DNA of 64,000 bases from Bradyrhizobium sp. CB3481 (GTDB lineage Bacteria > Pseudomonadota > Alphaproteobacteria > Rhizobiales > Xanthobacteraceae), in assembly GCF_029714305.1 (NCBI RefSeq), contig NZ_CP121647.1:5910501-5974500 (forward strand). The letters run 5' to 3'. The number at the start of each line of letters is the position of its first letter. The stretch's first letter is position 1. Below the pieces are notes generated by a model, which ran no database searches, was not told where the DNA came from, and was given only the letters and a program-made list of their open reading frames with translations. Shown piece after piece: positions 32,919 to 41,413 of this stretch. A program made the translations under genes and the position numbers.

Positions 32919-34943
32919 TTAGCGGAGCAGCTGCAGCACGCTCTGCTGGCTCTGGTTGGCCAGCGCCAGCGCGGACACCGCGATCGACTGGCGGGTCGAC
33001 AGCGCCTGGCTGTTCGCCGCTTCCTCGTTGGTGTCGGCCAGCGTCAGGTTCGACGAGCCGGTCTGCAGCACGTTGATCAGGTTCTTCGAGAAGTCCTGAC
33101 GGATCTGCACGATCGACAGGTTCGAACCGAAGGCCGAAGCCTGCGAGCGCAGCGTGGACGATGCGCCGTTCAACGCCGTCACGATGTCGTTGATCGCAGC
33201 GTTGTCCTTGAAGGCGCCCGTGCTCAGGACGTCGAGGCCGAGGCCGGCCGGGTTGAAGTTCACGCCCTGGATGCTCAGCGTGGACTTGCCGGTTTCGTTG
33301 AACGTCAGCTTCAGAGTGTCACCGCCGAGCAGGTTGATGCCGTTGAAGGACGCATCCTGCGAGGTGGTAGTGATCTGATTGATGATGTTGTTGTACTGAA
33401 TGACCAGGTTGTCTCGGGTCAACTTGGCCGATGGATCAACGATCGGAGCCGGAGCCGTGGTGCCGGCAGCGAACGCCTGGCTGGCGCCAACCGCGGAACC
33501 GGTGATCGCACCGATCGTGGCAGAAGCCGCTTCGTTCGTCGTGGTGATCGTCAGCTTGCCGGACACGAAAGTGGCCTGCAGGTTGTTGGCGGCAAGGGCC
33601 TCGTTCAACTGGTTGAGGTTGGACACGCGCCCCGCACCCGCGCCGAACACGATGTCGGTAGCAGTACCGCCGCCGGTCGCACCGATCTTCAGGGTCTTGC
33701 CTTCCAGCATGCCCGGGACTTGCGTGCGGGCCTGCGTCACGCCGCCTGGCAGACCGAGCGCCGTGAGAGCTGCAGCGTTGCTGCTGGTCAGCGTCAGGTC
33801 GCTCAGCGTGCCGGTGTTCAGCGTGATCTGGCCGCCGCTGATCGTCGAGGCCGTCGACGAGCCGGTCAGACCGTCGATCTTCGCCAGCAGGCCGGTGACG
33901 TCGCTGTTGACCTTGATCTCGTTCGGATCGTTGCCGATCGTGTTCGCGGCCACAAAGGTCAGCGTCTTGCCGTTGACGGTGAGGGTGTCACCCACCGCGA
34001 AGCCGTTCGACAGCGAAGCAGCCGTGCCGTCGCCGACGCTCAGCTTGGTCGTGCCGGCCAAAGCACCGGCCGTCACGGCGCCACCGCCACGCGTGGCGGT
34101 GCTTGCACCGGCGCCGTCGATGGCGAGTTTGTCGAGCACGTTTGCGGAGCCGGTCACGACGAGGTCGGCGGCCGTACCGGACCTCAGAGTGATGATGCCG
34201 CCCGTTGCCGTCGATGCGTTGGCCGGGGTCGTGTTGCCCGACAGAGTGTCGATCGCCGCCATCAAATCGCTCAGCGAGGTATCGACACCCATCGTATAGG
34301 CGGTGCCCGAACCGACGAGGCCGTTGGCGCCCGCTGCGAAGGTAATCGTCTTGCCGTTGACAGTCAGCGTGTCGTTAGCCTGGATCGCGTTGGCAGCACC
34401 GCCGACGCCAAGGTTGGTGGTCAGGCCCGACAGCAGCGTCGAAGCGCTCGCGTTGGTGGCGTTGCCCGAATAGAGCTGGGTGCCTGCTGTCGCGGGCGTG
34501 CTGGTATACGCGGCGCGCTGCGGAGCTGAAGCACCGGTAAATGCGGCGTTGGTCGGGGTCTGATCGGCGACGAGATTGTCGGCCGTTGCGCCGTCAATCA
34601 CGACGGATGTGAACGACGACTTGGTCGAGTAACCGACCGTCGTCTGCAACGCCTGATTGGCGACCGACTTGGCGGAGTCGACGAGCTTCTGCAGCGAGGT
34701 GATGCCGGTATTGGCGGCCTGCAGCACCTGCACGCCGTTGCCGATGCCGTCGAGGAGATTGTTGATGTCGCCGGCGCGCGCATCGAGCGACGCCGCGGTG
34801 AAGTAGTTGGTGGGGTTATCGAGGGCGGTGTTGACCTTCTTGCCGGTGGCAAGGCGATTCTGCGTGGTGGCGAGCAGATCGGCGGTCGACTGCAGCGAGA
34901 GGAGGTTCTGGCGAACCGAAGCCGAAAGAACAATACCGGACAT
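32919..34943 (-). CDS. fliC: Flagellin (large, with repeated DUF1522-type modules)
   Basis: 674 residues. The D0/D1 N-terminus (MSGIVLSASVRQNLLSLQST, ALDNPTNYFTAASLDARAGD) and C-terminus (ADTNEEAANSQALSTRQSIA, LANQSQQSVLQLLR) are complete flagellin. The variable middle holds about 330 residues of tandem modules: copy 1 at about 168-277 (DTLTVNGKTITF), copy 2 at 293-400 (DTLTVNGKTLTF), and a more divergent copy at 408-478 (GKTLKIGATGGG). The size matches large flagellins of the Bradyrhizobium thick flagellum. It has its own strong terminator. FlbT and FlaF are encoded on either side. Confidence 0.97.
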   Translation of the reverse strand: MSGIVLSASVRQNLLSLQSTADLLATTQNRLATGKKVNTALDNPTNYFTAASLDARAGDINNLLDGIGNGVQVLQAANTGITSLQKLVDSAKSVANQALQTTVGYSTKSSFTSVVIDGATADNLVADQTPTNAAFTGASAPQRAAYTSTPATAGTQLYSGNATNASASTLLSGLTTNLGVGGAANAIQANDTLTVNGKTITFAAGANGLVGSGTAYTMGVDTSLSDLMAAIDTLSGNTTPANASTATGGIITLRSGTAADLVVTGSANVLDKLAIDGAGASTATRGGGAVTAGALAGTTKLSVGDGTAASLSNGFAVGDTLTVNGKTLTFVAANTIGNDPNEIKVNSDVTGLLAKIDGLTGSSTASTISGGQITLNTGTLSDLTLTSSNAAALTALGLPGGVTQARTQVPGMLEGKTLKIGATGGGTATDIVFGAGAGRVSNLNQLNEALAANNLQATFVSGKLTITTTNEAASATIGAITGSAVGASQAFAAGTTAPAPIVDPSAKLTRDNLVIQYNNIINQITTTSQDASFNGINLLGGDTLKLTFNETGKSTLSIQGVNFNPAGLGLDVLSTGAFKDNAAINDIVTALNGASSTLRSQASAFGSNLSIVQIRQDFSKNLINVLQTGSSNLTLADTNEEAANSQALSTRQSIAVSALALANQSQQSVLQLLR
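33510..33722 (-). other. Divergent third module copy in flagellin
   Basis: Flagellin residues about 408-478 repeat the module logic in degenerate form: GKTLKIGA, then TDIVFGAG in place of the TITF strand, a helix LNQLNEALAANN and a final strand SGKLTITTTNEAA. Similarity to the other copies is weaker and partly structural. Confidence 0.45.
33744..34067 (-). other. Flagellin module copy 2 (DUF1522-type)
   Basis: Residues about 293-400: FAVGDTLTVNGKTLTF, then NEIKVNSDVTGLLAKIDGLT, then ISGGQITLNTG and LTLTSSNAAALTALGLPG. The same element order occurs in copy 1, FlgL and FlgE. Confidence 0.75.
34113..34442 (-). other. Flagellin module copy 1 (DUF1522-type)
   Basis: Residues about 168-277: STLLSGLTTN, IQANDTLTVNGKTITF, DTSLSDLMAAIDTLSG, TATGGIITLRSG and a final helix. 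It retains the STLLSG lead-in that is also present in FlgE and FlgL. Confidence 0.75.
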
Positions 34944-35295
34944 CTTTCATACCTTTCTGGTGTGAAATTAAACGAGCCACGATCCCGATCTCTCGATCAG
35001 GCGACCGGTCCACTCTGGAAGCAAGTCTCTAAGAAAAAATGAATCTGGCCGGATAAGCCGCCCGCAAAGACGATGAATTTGAAATTAATCCGCGGCGCCC
35101 GAATCGATTCCGTAGTTCTACTGGCCATTGCAGAAAGTCCCCGTCAAACGGGCACTTCTCGCATCTTCACCATTGGTTAACCATCATCGGAAAGGATGCA
35201 AAATCTGCCGGGCGTGGGTCTCGACGCGCAAGCTGGACGCGCGTTCCCATCGCGGGCGCGAAAGCGCGCAAAAAAGCGTCGAATGGAGAACAGGC
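34944..35295. other. Divergent intergenic region fliC / flbT
   Basis: 352 bases holding the flagellin promoter and the flbT leader. The fliC side has a ribosome-binding site (GAAAGGTATGAAAG). No confident -24/-12 or sigma-28 match was found for fliC. The flbT side shows TTGGTTAACCATCATCGG near 35172, containing a GGTTAACC palindrome. No additional gene is supported. Confidence 0.45.
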
Positions 35296-35724
35296 ATGGC
35301 CTTGAAAGTTGAGCTCAAGCCGCACGAGCGAATCATCATCGGTGCCTGCGTGGTCACCAACACCGATCAGCGCGCCAGGCTGCTGATCGACGGCGATAGG
35401 ATCCCGATCCTGCGCGAGAAAGACATCCTCACACCCGAAACCGCCGATACGCCGGCCAAGCTGGTCTATCTCGCGGTGCAGCTCATGTACCTGTCGCCGG
35501 ACCCGATGGCGCACCATCCGACCTATTTCAGCCTGGTGCGCGATATCCTCACGACGATGCCGAGCGCATGGCCTTTCATCGAGGGCATCAACAATTATAC
35601 GCTGAACGGCGATCTCTATCATGCGCTGAAGGAAGCGAAAAAACTGATCGGCCACGAAGAGCAGATTCTTGAGAGCGCCCGGAAGATGCAATCGTCCCAA
35701 GGGCCCGACCGCAAATCCGCCTGA
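35296..35724 (+). CDS. flbT: Flagellin synthesis repressor FlbT
   Basis: 142 residues from the Met of MALKVELKPHERIIIGACVV; the open frame extends upstream but without protein character. Conserved pieces are LIDGDRIPILREKDILTPE, AVQLMYLSPDPMAHHPTYF and VRDILTTMPSAWPFIEGINN. In Caulobacter FlbT binds the 5' region of flagellin mRNA and destabilises it until the hook is complete. Divergent from fliC and convergent with flgL. Confidence 0.93.
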   Translation: MALKVELKPHERIIIGACVVTNTDQRARLLIDGDRIPILREKDILTPETADTPAKLVYLAVQLMYLSPDPMAHHPTYFSLVRDILTTMPSAWPFIEGINNYTLNGDLYHALKEAKKLIGHEEQILESARKMQSSQGPDRKSA

Positions 35725-35733
35725 CGGCAAAAG

Positions 35734-35765
35734 AAAAGGCCCCCGCAAGGAGGGCCCTTTTTTGT
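35734..35765. terminator. Bidirectional terminator between flbT and flgL
   Basis: AAAAGGCCC and GGGCCCTTTT (one bulged C) form a stem around CCGCAAGGA with T runs on the plus strand and A runs upstream. It lies between the convergent stops of flbT and flgL. Confidence 0.75.
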
Positions 35766-35785
35766 GCGAAGAGGAAACCGCCCGA

Positions 35786-37663
35786 TCAGACCGGCAGGAA
35801 CTTGGTCAGCGTGGTCTGATAGAGCATCGACGTGGTCTGATACGAAGCCTGCAGGGACGTCTGGAGCGCCAGGATCTTGGTCGCGACTTCGTCCTGGTTG
35901 ATGCCCTCGATCTGGTCGAGCATGGTCTGCGCCATGCCCTTGAGCTGGGTCTGGCGGTCGGTCGAGGCCTTGATGGCGTTCTGCGCGCCGGCGAACTCGG
36001 CCTGCATGTCCTGGATCGACTGCTGGCCCGTCTGCGGCGCCAGGTTTGCCGAAATCCGCTGCTGCAGCGCGTTCACCTGCGCCTTCGAATTCGGATTGGC
36101 TGCATTGGTCGTCACCGCGGCATACACCGCGATGTTCTGCAACTGATAGCGCAGCGCCTGTTCGTTGGCGCGTGCTCCGTACTGCACCGTCGCAGACTGA
36201 TCGATACGCGCAATCGCCGTGCCGCGTGCCGGATCGGTTCCGATTTCGCCGGTGTACCACGAGACGGTGTTGGTGGATGTACCGCCAATCAGATTGGTGG
36301 CCGTGGCGAACGGAGGACCGTTGACTCGCAGCGGCGCGGGATTTGCACTCGCCGTGCCGCTGAAGCCCAGGGCTAAGAACGCAGCCGCGTTCGAACTGGA
36401 GATCGTCAGGCTCGTGCCATCGCCGCCATGCAGCGCGATCGCGCCGCCGGTGACCGTGGACGGCGTTCCGGTGCCGGTAATCGAATCAATCTTTGCCAGC
36501 AGGGTTTGGACGCTGTCAGTGATATTGAGCTGGTTGCCAGTCGCGCCGGAGGCGACGAAAGTGATCGGCGTGCCGTTGACCGTGATGGTATCGCCTGCTG
36601 CAAAGTTTGCGGCCAGCGAATCCGTATTCGCAGCGCCCGAAAGCAGCGTGGCGCCGGTGATCGGCGCTGGCACCGTGTCCTTGTTGTTGGCCGTACTTCC
36701 AACGACCGTCGCGGATGGATTGAAGAAATTGTTGGAAGCCTCGATCGCCGAGGCGGCAACCAGCGCGGTATCGCTCAGCGTTTGGATCGAGGACGTCAAC
36801 ACAGTCTGCAGGTTAGCCGTGGTCGCCGCCGTATCGGCGCCGATCAGAAAAGAGCCGGTGGGCGGCGGATTCGTCGTGGTCGCCGTCAGCGTGATCGCCT
36901 CGCTGGTGCCGTCAGGCAGATTGAAGTTGAAGGTGATCTTGTCGCCATCGTTCGGATTGACGGCGCCGAGGTCGATCGTCGCCGCCGGCGGCGTGCCGGC
37001 CGGCTGCGTCACGGTCGCGCCCGTCAGCGTCGAGGTGATTGCCCCCAGCTTCAGGCCGAAGGAAGAGCCGTCCTCGGCGAGACGTGTAACCGTCGTCGTG
37101 AGCGGCGGCGATGAAACCGTCAGATGCCCCATGTTGAAGACGCCCTGATCGGCCTGACGACGCTCGTTGATCAACTGTTTCAGCCCGGCCTGCGTCCCCA
37201 CGCCGTCGAGCATGACATCGGCCGGCACCGTCGCCGCCGTGTCGGTGGTGCGGCCGGAAAACAGATAGCGGTCACCCGACTGGCTGTTGAGCAGCGACAC
37301 CGCGTTCGAGAACGCGGCCTGCGCCGTGATCTGGCCGGAGGTCTGGCCGTTGTCGTTGAGCACGATGGTCGACGTGCTCGCCGCGCTCTTCACCGACTTT
37401 CCGATGTCGATCATGCCCTGCAGCGCGAGATTGACGACGCTGAGCCGCGTATTGACGTTCTTGGCGGTATCCGCGAAGGCATCGATGCTGCTGACCTGCG
37501 CGCGCAGGCTGAGCGCAAAGCCCCGATTGGCGCCCTCCCCCGCATAGGTCGTCGAGACCCGGCCGCTGGCGAGCTGCTGCGTCAGTTCATCGAGCTGCCT
37601 GCGCAGACCGATGATCGAGCTGCCGATATAGGATGTCCGGCCGTTAACGCCATCAATCGACAT
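35786..37663 (-). CDS. flgL: Flagellar hook-filament junction protein FlgL (HAP3), enlarged
   Basis: 625 residues, against about 300-350 for typical FlgL. The N-terminal flagellin-like helix (LDELTQQLASGRVSTTYAGE, FSNAVSLLNSQSGDRYLFSG) and C-terminal helix (DMQAEFAGAQNAIKASTDRQ, LQASYQTTSMLYQTTLTKFL) identify it. The extra length is a beta-rich middle of about 300 residues that includes a module like those of the flagellin and FlgE at about 336-437. It forms the junction between FlgK and the filament. Last gene of flgE-flgK-flgL, seven bases after flgK. Confidence 0.9.
   Translation of the reverse strand: MSIDGVNGRTSYIGSSIIGLRRQLDELTQQLASGRVSTTYAGEGANRGFALSLRAQVSSIDAFADTAKNVNTRLSVVNLALQGMIDIGKSVKSAASTSTIVLNDNGQTSGQITAQAAFSNAVSLLNSQSGDRYLFSGRTTDTAATVPADVMLDGVGTQAGLKQLINERRQADQGVFNMGHLTVSSPPLTTTVTRLAEDGSSFGLKLGAITSTLTGATVTQPAGTPPAATIDLGAVNPNDGDKITFNFNLPDGTSEAITLTATTTNPPPTGSFLIGADTAATTANLQTVLTSSIQTLSDTALVAASAIEASNNFFNPSATVVGSTANNKDTVPAPITGATLLSGAANTDSLAANFAAGDTITVNGTPITFVASGATGNQLNITDSVQTLLAKIDSITGTGTPSTVTGGAIALHGGDGTSLTISSSNAAAFLALGFSGTASANPAPLRVNGPPFATATNLIGGTSTNTVSWYTGEIGTDPARGTAIARIDQSATVQYGARANEQALRYQLQNIAVYAAVTTNAANPNSKAQVNALQQRISANLAPQTGQQSIQDMQAEFAGAQNAIKASTDRQTQLKGMAQTMLDQIEGINQDEVATKILALQTSLQASYQTTSMLYQTTLTKFLPV
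36353..36658 (-). other. Shared axial-protein module in FlgL
   Basis: FlgL residues about 336-437: ITGATLLSGAANTDSL, FAAGDTITVNGTPITF, VQTLLAKIDSITG, VTGGAIALHGGD and LTISSSNAAAFLALGFSG. The FlgE copy is closely similar, including the NNK residues just before it. Confidence 0.8.
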
Positions 37664-37670
37664 GAAACCC

Positions 37671-39557
37671 TCACATGGCCTGGATCAGCGTGTCGTACAT
37701 CTGCTTGATGGACGACATCACCCGCGCATTGGCGGAATAGGCATTTTGCAACGCGAGCAGATGCGCCATCTCGTCGTCGATATTGACGCCGGAGGCATCC
37801 GTCACCTTCTTCTGCAGTGTATTCAGCACCACGGCCTGGCCGTCGGCGAGTTGCTTCGCCGAGGTCGCAGCTTCGCCCTGCTGGCTGATGAATTGCTTGG
37901 CGAAGTTCAATAGCGTCCCGGTGAACGGCGCGCCGGTGGTGCCGATGCCGGTCTGCGGCGAATAGCGATAAGTTCCCGTCTGCAGCTGCGTGAGGATGAA
38001 GTCGGAGCGCGTGGTGTCGCCCGCGGGCGTCAGCGGACTGGTCGAGAACACGATGGTGCGCGAGGGATCGCCGAGCAGCCCGAGATTGACGCTGATGCGG
38101 CCGGCAAGCCCCGTCACCTGCGGACCGTTGGCCGTCAGCGCGCCCGTGTAGAGCCCGCCATTGTCGGTGAACAGCGGAAGCTGCGCATTGCCGCTGGTGA
38201 GCGACGACATCGTCGTGGTGACCGATGCAGACAGCACGTCCGAGCGATTCGGAGCGCCGTCGTCCAGCACGCGCAAGGTCGAGCCCGACGGATTTGAGAA
38301 CTGCAGATTTGCAGTGGGCCCAAGCGCGGCGTTGAGCTGCGAAACCACCGAAGCCATGCCGCCGGAAAAATTGACGCCGAGCACTTCGTCGTTCGGGTCG
38401 AGTGTCGCGGTATTGCTCAGCGGCAACACGCTCGGATCGTCGACGCGCACGATCGAGAGATTGTGTGTGATGCCGGTGGTGTTGTCCTTGTAGCTGACGT
38501 GAATGACGTTGCCCGACTGCAATCCGGTGAGATCGAGATCATAGCCGGCCTGCGGCAGGACTGACGCAGGAGCAGCGGCGCCGGCGGTCGTCTTGTCCGA
38601 CAGCGCGCTCGACATCGCCGCCGCGAACTGGTCGATCTGCGCCTGCGCTTTCACCAGCGTATTGTCGCGCAGCTCGAGGTAGGCGGCGATCTTGCCTGAG
38701 CGAATCGAGTTGGTGGATACCAGATCGTAGCTGCCGCCGTGCGGAAAATTGATCGTGATGGTGCCGACGTTGCTCTTGGTCGGATCGGTCGGATTGTATA
38801 GCGTGTTGGGCGTCATCGTGCCCTGCGGATTGAAGCTGAGCTGCGCCGCTTCGGTGCCGACGAGCTGCACGCCGGAATTCGTGAAAACCGTCACCTGGTT
38901 GAGGTCGTTGACGACGGTTCTGATGTCCATCAGCGACGACAACTGCGTGATGTATTGATCGCGCTGGTCGAGCAGAGAGGCGGTCGCCGCGTCGGTCTTA
39001 CCGTTGTTCTGCAGCTGGTTGTTGATGAACGCGATCTGGGCCATCGCGTTGTTGGCCGTAACGATGGAATCGTTGATGCCCATCTCGGCGTTGGCGCGAA
39101 GGTTCTGAATGCCTTGCGTCGTCGCATTGAGCGTCTGCGCCATGGTCTGCGCGGCGTTGACGGCACCGATCCTCGCCGACTGAGAGTCCGGGCTCGTCGA
39201 CAGGCCCTGAAACGCGGTCAACAGCTTGTTGAACGCATCCTCGATGGTGCCTGTTTCGGACGGGTTGCCGTAAACGCTCTGCAGATTTTGCAGGAAGGTC
39301 GAGCGGATATCGGCATAGGCCGCGCCGGAGGTTTCGGTGCGCAGCGCCGTCTGCAGATACTGGTCGAGCTGACGGTCGACGCCGTTGAGCAGAACGCTCG
39401 ATCCGTAGTCGCCGGTGACGCCGGCGGACTGGATGACCGACTTCCTGACGTAACCAGGCGTTTCCGCGTTGGCTACATTCGATCCGACCAGCGAGATCGC
39501 AGCTTGCGTCGCACGCAGGCCGGACATTGCGGTGGAGAGAGCTTGACTCAAACCCAT
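37671..39557 (-). CDS. flgK: Flagellar hook-associated protein 1 FlgK
   Basis: 628 residues. The N-terminus MGLSQALSTAMSGLRATQAA with GSNVANAETPGYVRKSV is typical. The central coiled coil (ANNAMAQIAFINNQLQNNGK, ASLLDQRDQYITQLSSLMDI) and the C-terminus VNIDDEMAHLLALQNAYSAN, ARVMSSIKQMYDTLIQAM are all FlgK. FlgK is the first junction protein above the hook. Unlike FlgE and FlgL it does not contain the shared module. Second gene of flgE-flgK-flgL, 44 bases after flgE. Confidence 0.95.
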   Translation of the reverse strand: MGLSQALSTAMSGLRATQAAISLVGSNVANAETPGYVRKSVIQSAGVTGDYGSSVLLNGVDRQLDQYLQTALRTETSGAAYADIRSTFLQNLQSVYGNPSETGTIEDAFNKLLTAFQGLSTSPDSQSARIGAVNAAQTMAQTLNATTQGIQNLRANAEMGINDSIVTANNAMAQIAFINNQLQNNGKTDAATASLLDQRDQYITQLSSLMDIRTVVNDLNQVTVFTNSGVQLVGTEAAQLSFNPQGTMTPNTLYNPTDPTKSNVGTITINFPHGGSYDLVSTNSIRSGKIAAYLELRDNTLVKAQAQIDQFAAAMSSALSDKTTAGAAAPASVLPQAGYDLDLTGLQSGNVIHVSYKDNTTGITHNLSIVRVDDPSVLPLSNTATLDPNDEVLGVNFSGGMASVVSQLNAALGPTANLQFSNPSGSTLRVLDDGAPNRSDVLSASVTTTMSSLTSGNAQLPLFTDNGGLYTGALTANGPQVTGLAGRISVNLGLLGDPSRTIVFSTSPLTPAGDTTRSDFILTQLQTGTYRYSPQTGIGTTGAPFTGTLLNFAKQFISQQGEAATSAKQLADGQAVVLNTLQKKVTDASGVNIDDEMAHLLALQNAYSANARVMSSIKQMYDTLIQAM

Positions 39558-39601
39558 GACTGATTGCCCATCTCAAATCGCATCGCGAACGTCGCGGCGA
39601 A

Positions 39602-41413
39602 CTACCGCAGCACGTTCAACAGATCCTGCACCATCGTGTTGGAAGTGGTGATCACCTTGGTGTTCGCCGAATAGGCCTGCTGCGTGACGATCAGCTTGGT
39701 GAACTCGTCGGCGATATCGGTGTTGGAGCCTTCCAGCGACGAGCCAACGATGGTTCCGGCCTTGCCGTACAGCGCCTGTCCGGATCCGTCGGTCATCTCG
39801 AACGCGCCGCCGTTGACGCGCTTGAGGAAGTTGGTGCCGTTGAAGGTCGCGACCGAGATTTCAGCGAGGTCGAGGTTGCGGCCGTTGGAATAGTTGCCAA
39901 CGATTCGGCCGTTGGTGCCGACGCCGACGGACTGCAACTGGCCGGCCGGGAAGCCGTCCTGCTGGATCTGGTTGACCTGCACGTTGCCGTTGGCATCCGC
40001 GAACTGGGTGACACCGCCGGTGCCGAAGTTGATGACGGGGCTGCCCAGCGCGACGCCGTTGACGACGGCATTGGTAAGCTCCACCGACGGAATCGCCGGC
40101 GTCATTTGGCCCGACGCCGAGAAGGTGAAGTTGGTATTGACGTTCTGCCACGAGACCTGCGTGCCGGTGGCGTTGGGATTGACCTGGTAGAACAGGTTCC
40201 ATGTGTCGGTATGGCCGGCGCCAAGCGAAGCGCTGTCGACCTTGGCCCAACGGAACTGCAGGTTCACCGGCGCGCCCGAGATGTCGTAGGTCGTAACCGC
40301 ACCGCCCGCGATCGACTCGGCGAGGAACGTCGAGTTGTCGTTGCCGACGACCTGGCCGGTGCCGACGCCGCCGCCGCCACCGCGCGTTGCCGTCACGGTG
40401 CCGGTAAAGCCGAGGGCAGCCCAGGCTGCGGTGTTCGAACTTGAGATCGAGAGATTGAAGTTCGTGCCGGAGTGCAGCGTGATCGAGCCGGAGGCGATCG
40501 TGGACGGGGTTGAAGTTTGCTGGAGCGCGTCGATCTTGGTCAGCAAGGTTCCGATGGTGTCGTCGACGTTGATCTCGTTGGGGCCGACGGCGGTGCCCGA
40601 CGCCTTGAAGGTGAGGGTTTGGCCGTTGACCGTGATGGTGTCGTTCACGACGAAATTGGTGGAGATCGAGTTGGTGCCGGCCGCGCCGCTGAGCAGGGTT
40701 GCGGCCGTATTTGCAACCGACGGCGTCGCCTTGTTGTTCTGGGTGGTGCCGCTTCGGGAAGTGTCGGTATAGGGCGCCGCAGGCGTGCCAAGCGCCAGCG
40801 GATTGTGTCCGGCGCTGTACGATCCGGGCACGATCAATTCCGAGCCGGGAACGGAAACGTCATGCTTGGTGGTCAGTGGATAGCTGGCGAGGTTGGCGCG
40901 ATAGTCGATCCGGGTGGTCTGCTGCGCCGGAAGGAAGTCGTTCTGAAACCTTAGAACCTGCGGCGAGCTGCCGGACGGGTTGCCCGTGGTCGGGTCGATC
41001 GGCACGCCCTGCAGATAGTAGCCGGCGCCGTTGACGAGATAGCCGCTCTTGTCGAGCTGGAAGTCGCCGCGACGGGTGAAGCGGTCGACGCCGTCGAACA
41101 CCGGCGTGCCGTCGGTGAAGTTGCCGGGCTTTTGCACCGCGAAGAAGCCGTTGCCGTTGATCGCCATGAAGGTCGCGACCGAGGCCGTCTGCACGTCGCC
41201 CTGCACCGAGTTGGTGGAGCGGGATTGCGTGGTGACGCCGCCGGCAAGCTGCGCCGTCGTGGCGGTCTGCGGGATGAGATCAAGGAAGGAGGTATCGATG
41301 CGCTTGAACGCCGTGGTCTGCGAGTTGGCGATGTTGCCCGAGACGTTTTCCAGCGCGTAGGAGTTGGCGCGAAGGCCGCCGACCGCGGTGGTGAGAGCGC
41401 CGAAGATACCCAT
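39602..41413 (-). CDS. flgE: Flagellar hook protein FlgE
   Basis: 603 residues, longer than the roughly 400 of enteric FlgE. The N-terminal rod/hook helix FGALTTAVGGLRANSYALEN and NIANSQTTAFKRIDTSF, the D1 motif FMAINGNGFFAVQ, and the C-terminal EGSNTDIADEFTKLIVTQQA with YSANTKVITTSNTMVQDLLN are complete. Residues about 236-345 hold a module shared with FlgL and flagellin. It polymerises into the flexible hook. First gene of flgE-flgK-flgL, behind a near-perfect sigma-54 promoter. Confidence 0.95.
   Translation of the reverse strand: MGIFGALTTAVGGLRANSYALENVSGNIANSQTTAFKRIDTSFLDLIPQTATTAQLAGGVTTQSRSTNSVQGDVQTASVATFMAINGNGFFAVQKPGNFTDGTPVFDGVDRFTRRGDFQLDKSGYLVNGAGYYLQGVPIDPTTGNPSGSSPQVLRFQNDFLPAQQTTRIDYRANLASYPLTTKHDVSVPGSELIVPGSYSAGHNPLALGTPAAPYTDTSRSGTTQNNKATPSVANTAATLLSGAAGTNSISTNFVVNDTITVNGQTLTFKASGTAVGPNEINVDDTIGTLLTKIDALQQTSTPSTIASGSITLHSGTNFNLSISSSNTAAWAALGFTGTVTATRGGGGGVGTGQVVGNDNSTFLAESIAGGAVTTYDISGAPVNLQFRWAKVDSASLGAGHTDTWNLFYQVNPNATGTQVSWQNVNTNFTFSASGQMTPAIPSVELTNAVVNGVALGSPVINFGTGGVTQFADANGNVQVNQIQQDGFPAGQLQSVGVGTNGRIVGNYSNGRNLDLAEISVATFNGTNFLKRVNGGAFEMTDGSGQALYGKAGTIVGSSLEGSNTDIADEFTKLIVTQQAYSANTKVITTSNTMVQDLLNVLR
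40379..40708 (-). other. Shared axial-protein module in FlgE
   Basis: FlgE residues about 236-345: TAATLLSGAAGTNSI, FVVNDTITVNGQTLTF, IGTLLTKIDALQQ, IASGSITLHSGTNFNL and SISSSNTAAWAALGFTGTV. Element order and many positions match FlgL 336-437 and flagellin copies 1 and 2. Confidence 0.8.

Follow-up and report, generated by a model that had tools for sequence, protein, structure and literature searches.

One outer domain shared by the hook, junction and flagellin proteins of Bradyrhizobium, with copying between hook and junction genes in relatives

A module of ~120 residues is common to the hook protein FlgE, the hook-filament junction protein FlgL and, as a tandem pair, the flagellin encoded in the window, that is, the whole stretch of 64,000 nucleotides of Bradyrhizobium sp. 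CB3481 analysed here (contig NZ_CP121647.1, positions 5,910,501 to 5,974,500); the likeness is seen in both sequence and profile comparisons. That an outer domain is shared by three axial proteins, with documented copying between the genes of two of them, is well supported. We read the module as an outer domain that is interchangeable and maintained by selection; set in tolerant surface loops of the three proteins, it would add bulk and contacts. We give this reading a probability of roughly 0.7. The genes and modules concerned are listed below, the identity of flgL being based on its position after flgK together with matches to two families that lie under their cut-offs.

39602..41413, minus strand: flgE, hook protein, 603 residues (gene calls and family profiles; alignment to Campylobacter FlgE)
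37671..39557, minus strand: flgK, 628 residues, without the module (TIGR02492, 340.7 bits)
35786..37663, minus strand: flgL, hook-filament junction protein, 625 residues (TIGR02550, 45.9 bits, and NF004669, 59 bits, each under its own cut-off)
32919..34943, minus strand: flagellin gene, 674 residues (Flagellin_N/_C; NF009330, 648.6 bits)
40373..40738, minus strand: FlgE module, residues 226-347, at the D2 insertion site (profile, 181 bits)
36329..36688, minus strand: FlgL module, residues 326-445 (profile, 168 bits)
34080..34469, minus strand: flagellin module 1, residues 159-288, type A (profile, 145 bits; DUF1522 match at 219-268; AlphaFold prediction)
33717..34088, minus strand: flagellin module 2, residues 286-409, type B (profile, 163 bits; trees; AlphaFold prediction)
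33498..33737, minus strand: flagellin residues 403-482, a conserved flagellin element once proposed as a third copy (strand-strand-helix-strand-strand order in the AlphaFold prediction)

Likeness, fold and family of the module

Local alignment scores of the segments, set against 300 shuffles, give z-scores of 31 for FlgE/FlgL, 23 for FlgE and the second flagellin copy (FliC-2), 20 for FlgL/FliC-2, 15 for FlgE/FliC-1, 12 for FliC-1/FliC-2 and 9.6 for FlgL/FliC-1. By BLASTP the FlgE and FlgL modules are 55% identical over 121 residues (E=3e-29) and those of FlgE and FliC-2 53% over 98 residues (E=2e-20), and the HHalign comparison proposed in a preliminary description of this DNA matches the module profiles of the three host proteins to one another at a probability of 99.9-100%. 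That description had claimed one domain family in FlgE, FlgL and twice in flagellin, an NNK lead-in common to FlgE and FlgL, and a FlgK devoid of the module, all of which is borne out: the lead-in is present in both proteins (likewise in flagellin modules of two relatives, L105 and L113), and in FlgK all five segments score inside the shuffled range. In trees the type B module of flagellin groups closer to the FlgE and FlgL modules than type A does.

AlphaFold (AF2) predictions, which cover the FlgE module and the flagellin copies, give the FlgE module a mean local confidence score (pLDDT) of 93.1, and its strand/helix order recurs in both flagellin copies. The suggested kinship to DUF1522 (PF07482) also holds, with 28 of 40 module sequences matching this family at E<=1 (best 2.6e-7) and residues 33-64 of the FlgE module matching DUF1522 positions 1-32. 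The FlgE module alone scores 17.9 bits, and the window flagellin 18.9 bits by hmmscan and 22.6 in the genome search, or 26.3 with neighbours, the Pfam gathering cut-off being 25; for FlgL and full-length FlgE, hmmscan of the window proteins lists no DUF1522 match at E<=1. We take the module to be a DUF1522-like alpha/beta outer domain, compact and self-folding. Sequence searches gave no relative of solved structure: the module profile reaches E 0.16 at best, and FlgL has none at E<=0.01. HHalign also matches the modules to the part of FlgE that precedes the module, but this is probably an artefact, since a query of 85 residues gave a profile of 122 columns, which seems to extend into the module.

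The weaker third copy that had been placed at flagellin residues 408-478 is not upheld: its z-score is 0.4-1.1 against every other segment, and its HHalign probability against the three host profiles is 1.5-3% (pairwise E 0.005-0.013). AF2 gives this stretch a shorter strand-strand-helix-strand-strand order, so that remote kinship is still conceivable and a copy is not demonstrated. On the predicted fold, residues 403-482 form a separate conserved element that may be remotely akin to the module. The same element (33498-33737) is also found in flagellins of other families (L195, L197).

A genome-wide search at E<=0.1 finds six module copies, every one in a flagellar protein and four of them in the window. 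The other two belong to one further gene, a second flagellin outside the window and far from the operon (G000:C1:454813-455976), with a type A followed by a type B module (G000:C1:455254-455976); this flagellin is 90% identical over the part covered in L037 (also L005, L007). Among named genomes, B. murdochi has the FlgL module nearest to that of the window (96%), and those of B. retamae, B. lablabi and B. jicamae are 88-89% identical. Links to viral sequences are weak: the PHROG family phrog_28344 (function unassigned) matches 13 of the 40 modules (best E 2.1e-7), and the predicted viral protein A0A7S5R744 has a fold like that of the module (Foldseek E 4.6e-5, probability 1.0, 30% identity). 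A module-like stretch is also carried by L205, which resembles a phage tail protein. No tblastn match was found in plasmids with the FlgE module.

Insertion sites and copy number

The module lies, as had been suggested, at sites where outer domains are inserted, and these sites are empty in some relatives. FlgL proteins without a module match have 495-539 residues in 50 of 54 cases, those with one module 623-635 (28 proteins), those with two 768-774 (three proteins) and the one with three 878; three further FlgL of 794-797 residues have an upstream module copy under the profile threshold. The insertion is clean: in the 14 module-free FlgL shown in the alignment, NNFF(D/N) or NFF(D/N) is followed, after at most one extra residue, by PPLRV or similar, and in module-bearing FlgL the alignment places the entire insert between NFF(D/N) and PPLRV. 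FlgL frames of 586-591 residues in genus g44 (L108, L165, L167) and in G170 (L109) have ~85 extra residues with no module match, which may reflect the choice of N-terminal start or another insert. In G603, of another family (L201 3634-5490), the FlgL module occupies a different loop (271-386) and the usual site is empty as read from the sequence; this module is an independent gain.

In FlgE, matches to the window protein are split into ~1-210 and 350-603 in frames of ~460-500 residues from several genera. At the position of the module, nine of the 14 regions read (eight genes of the family and one of another family) have 0-1 residues, and the other five (L245-L249, four genera) have 184-298 residues of different sequence with no module match at E<=1. 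The hook site can therefore be vacant, carry the module, or carry something else. Residues 7-177 and 350-600 of the window FlgE align to residues 4-180 and 592-848 of Campylobacter FlgE, in which D3-D4 is reported as residues 193-618 (PMC5069557); the module lies between the two halves of D2, at the site where Campylobacter carries D3-D4. The D2 site of FlgE is an insertion hot spot.

In flagellin, the modules sit in the hypervariable region, between core ends at residues 113 and 516 (14-113 and 516-674 align to a minimal Caulobacter flagellin). Copies per protein range from 0 to 3 in FlgE, 0 to 3 in FlgL and 0 to 4 in flagellin (387-980 residues), and FlgK is nearly constant (606-633 residues in 88 of 89, with one frame of 377). 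A giant flagellin frame of 1706 residues in another family (L200; G511:C48:97000-104000) contains nine tandem module matches, mostly weak.

Distribution among genomes and proteins

All 36 Bradyrhizobium genomes sampled have a module match, and other families in the same sample have none in 24. The match is present in 110 of 296 genomes and 14 of 47 genera of the family; in 21 of 297 genomes sampled from the order (11 belong to other families, six of these matching only at E above 1e-6); and in seven of 289 sampled from the class, namely the window genome and six weak matches outside the order (E 5e-8 to 9e-5). A contig labelled as a Mycobacterium metagenome-assembled genome (L277, JAJKIB010000186.1) carries a Bradyrhizobium-like FlgL module (70%) and is probably mis-binned.

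Co-occurrence in the three proteins, for which a survey had been proposed, was counted in fetched gene clusters, using only proteins uncut by the stretch end. The genomes were chosen for having module matches, and therefore only the contrasts between proteins are informative: the module is present in 86 of 86 FlgE, 51 of 95 flagellins, only 35 of 89 FlgL, and none of 89 FlgK (that of the window included). The module-bearing FlgL are all from genera g1 and g67, and the remaining 54 have no module match.

Copying between flgE and flgL

Copying between the two genes is clear in some relatives. In G015, modules 1 and 2 of FlgE and module 1 of FlgL form one clade (100/98, bootstrap not fully settled), a single clade of all FlgE modules is rejected (approximately unbiased (AU) test, p=0.0003), and flgE and flgL have 373 bp in common at 81.8%; the tract common to both genes in G007 is 710 bp at 75.8%, the length of two modules. 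Fourteen genomes of the second of two clades, the first being that of the window, have an extra upstream module in FlgE; it is present in the FlgL of G007 too and, as a separate case, in that of G034, G014 and G018, a single origin in FlgL being rejected (p=0.024). These groups (G015, G007 and G034/G014/G018) were tested after the trees had been inspected.

The flgE and flgL modules of the window are 65.6% identical in DNA over 259 bp, and there has therefore been no recent conversion between these genes. FlgL modules of the window's clade have mean identities of 60.5% and 66.0% to two subsets of the other clade's FlgL modules and 58.1% to FlgE modules of their own clade. Of the intragenomic duplication put forward earlier, gene-to-gene copying thus stands for relatives, with shared tracts in G007 and G015, and a recent duplication or conversion in the window genome does not. 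A reading in which the FlgE modules of the second clade's core are nested within FlgL modules was dropped, as one clade of FlgE modules is not rejected (p=0.237); it is also countered by a branch (100/100) that separates the canonical modules of FlgE from those of FlgL in that core.

Module-bearing FlgL form two separated groups both in the FlgK tree and in the FlgL-backbone tree (fewest changes 3). In the best BLASTP piece, the window FlgL backbone is 60-62% identical to module-free FlgL of genus g64 and 42-52% to module-bearing FlgL of the other group. The FlgL modules of the two groups, 60-66% alike, resemble each other more than the backbones do, and more than FlgL modules of the window's clade resemble its FlgE modules (58%), which suggests movement of the module apart from its host gene. 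Copying would proceed by recombination or gene conversion among the tandem flgE-flgK-flgL genes, and between strains via flanking homology. The flgE and flgL modules are direct repeats flanking flgK, and a crossover between near-identical copies would delete flgK, so that long-lived copies should be diverged, as in the window. We put at about even odds the view that this single outer domain forms a shared pool of cassettes, hopping among hook, junction and filament genes and between strains apart from the host genes, with FlgK closed to it.

Alternative explanations

Several results weigh against a freely exchanged domain whose copies need not match. The tree of 203 modules has 9 changes of host protein, with a minimum of 2 and a mean of 89 after shuffling; for the conflict between FlgL modules and backbones, the alternative grouping is not rejected (AU p=0.141); and all FlgL modules as one clade fit slightly better than the free tree search. 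FlgE/FlgL module identity is slightly higher within than between genomes over all 36 genomes (53.9 vs 52.2%; reached in 105 of 20,000 permutations) and over the 23 genomes of the other clade (51.8 vs 50.1%; 407 of 20,000), and FlgE and FlgL lengths are correlated over 84 genomes (rho 0.42, p 7e-5, kinship uncorrected). The sorting of modules mainly by host protein, the tenable single FlgL clade and a weak module relative at roughly the same place in FlgE of another family (G502, 28.5 bits; G040, 22.5 bits) would suit ancient paralogy without mobility, in which the ancestral proteins of the family already carried modules, later lost many times, the copying in G007 and G015 being exceptional. 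This account meets the two separated groups of module-bearing FlgL, for which one gain plus losses alone would need ~six losses by our reading of the trees, and a window FlgL whose backbone is nearer the module-free g64 proteins, yet whose module is nearer those of the other group; we consider it improbable. The identity excess and the length correlation, with one family in three neighbouring parts, bear instead on the earlier proposal that successive axial parts present a matching surface, the same module being kept so that surfaces fit or bind each other. In the window's clade (13 genomes), however, identity is 57.4% within and 58.1% between genomes (18,566 of 20,000 permutations at least as high), with no sign of concerted evolution, and the other clade's core (14 genomes) has no within-genome excess (6,870 of 20,000). 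At least part of the overall excess stems from the contrast between clades (58.1% inside the window's clade and 50-54% across clades). Where all three proteins are available (54 genomes), the FlgE-FlgL length correlation is gone (rho 0.10, p 0.45), and flagellin length tracks neither FlgE (rho 0.16, p 0.26) nor FlgL (rho 0.11, p 0.43). Module numbers differ freely (FlgE 1 and FlgL 3 in G025; flagellins 4 and FlgL 0 in G294), and FlgK, the intervening part, has the module in none of 89 proteins. That copies are kept alike for surface matching is not supported, and we regard it as very unlikely.

Instead of serving mechanically, the module might also act as a hypervariable shield, its diversity countering phages or hosts that bind the flagellum. 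Its variable copy number would fit, as would one predicted viral protein of like fold (E 4.6e-5) and its position in FlgE as the least conserved of three parts compared (mean identity 72% vs 88-89%). In FlgL, however, it is about as variable as the part preceding it (78.8 vs 79.3%); mean dN/dS, the ratio of nonsynonymous to synonymous substitution rates, is 0.39 in FlgE and 0.21 in FlgL, so that the module is on average under purifying selection; and tblastn searches of phages with three modules (from FlgE, from the window flagellin and from a relative's flagellin) gave no match. A shield is thus an explanation we doubt, and an interchangeable, maintained outer domain remains our preferred one.

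Function and relation to known outer domains

In the assembled flagellum the domain would point outwards, adding subunit-subunit contacts and bulk; by analogy with other systems (PMC5069557, PMC8931119, PMC10256154) it would stiffen and widen the hook and decorate the filament. The copies would not need to match, each being tuned to its own ring or lattice. We infer this role in bulk and contacts from reports that a Salmonella hook with Campylobacter D3-D4 assembles and is bulkier (25.1 nm), with swimming at about two-thirds speed, and that D3 alone gives no flagella (PMC5069557), and that in other bacteria outer domains are important for moving through viscous media (PMC8931119, PMC10256154). 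The swimming flagellum of Bradyrhizobium is described as thick (PMC5017801, PMC6248924), and giant flagellins are reported to form thick filaments (PMC6248924). The module had been offered as an explanation of this thickness: by that analogy the extra flagellin domains plausibly thicken the filament, but the FlgE and FlgL copies cannot explain it.

DUF1522 was counted 155 times among the domains in hypervariable regions of 26,587 flagellins (PMC5595980). The modules described here match the same family, but that count concerns flagellins, whereas here hook and junction proteins carry the domain as well, with scores under the Pfam cut-off. The hook domains D3/D4 of Campylobacter and Caulobacter occupy the same D2 site of FlgE and, like the module, vary in presence between species; those D3 domains are reported to be mutually unlike in sequence and fold (PMC5069557), whereas here the domain of the hook is found again in FlgL and flagellin, and some genomes have exchanged it between FlgE and FlgL. 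Growth by tandem copies of one surface domain, here 0-4, is likewise a feature of giant flagellins, which carry tandem domain-extension (DE) repeats (PMC6248924); DE is named there as another domain, and here the hook and junction carry the domain of flagellin, with lengths that do not track flagellin length. Junction proteins also gain or change outer domains between species in FlgK, as described for D2/D3, where the D3 fold of Burkholderia FlgK is similar to its own D2 (PMC5691160); there FlgK varies, whereas here FlgK is near-constant and FlgL and FlgE vary. Among the literature matches listed, no title or abstract opening concerns this domain as common to hook, junction and filament, which is no proof of its absence.

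Flagellin_IN is a short surface motif of flagellins and hook-associated proteins, and it does not appear among the 25 Pfam families listed, of 29 that match the 40 modules at E<=1. In flagellins it was counted 3286 times (PMC5595980).

The cited papers deal with the outer domains of each protein, hook or flagellin, separately. Here a single family extends over three axial proteins, two of which have empty sites for comparison, and its copying between hook and junction genes is caught. Its 0 to 4 copies offer a natural series for testing the effect of an outer domain on hook stiffness, filament width and viscous swimming. The question raised in PMC6248924, whether other flagellar parts are correspondingly large, is also touched, as neither hook nor junction length follows that of flagellin in the 54 genomes. 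If the pool of shared cassettes is real, the surface domains of flagella would evolve as interchangeable parts.
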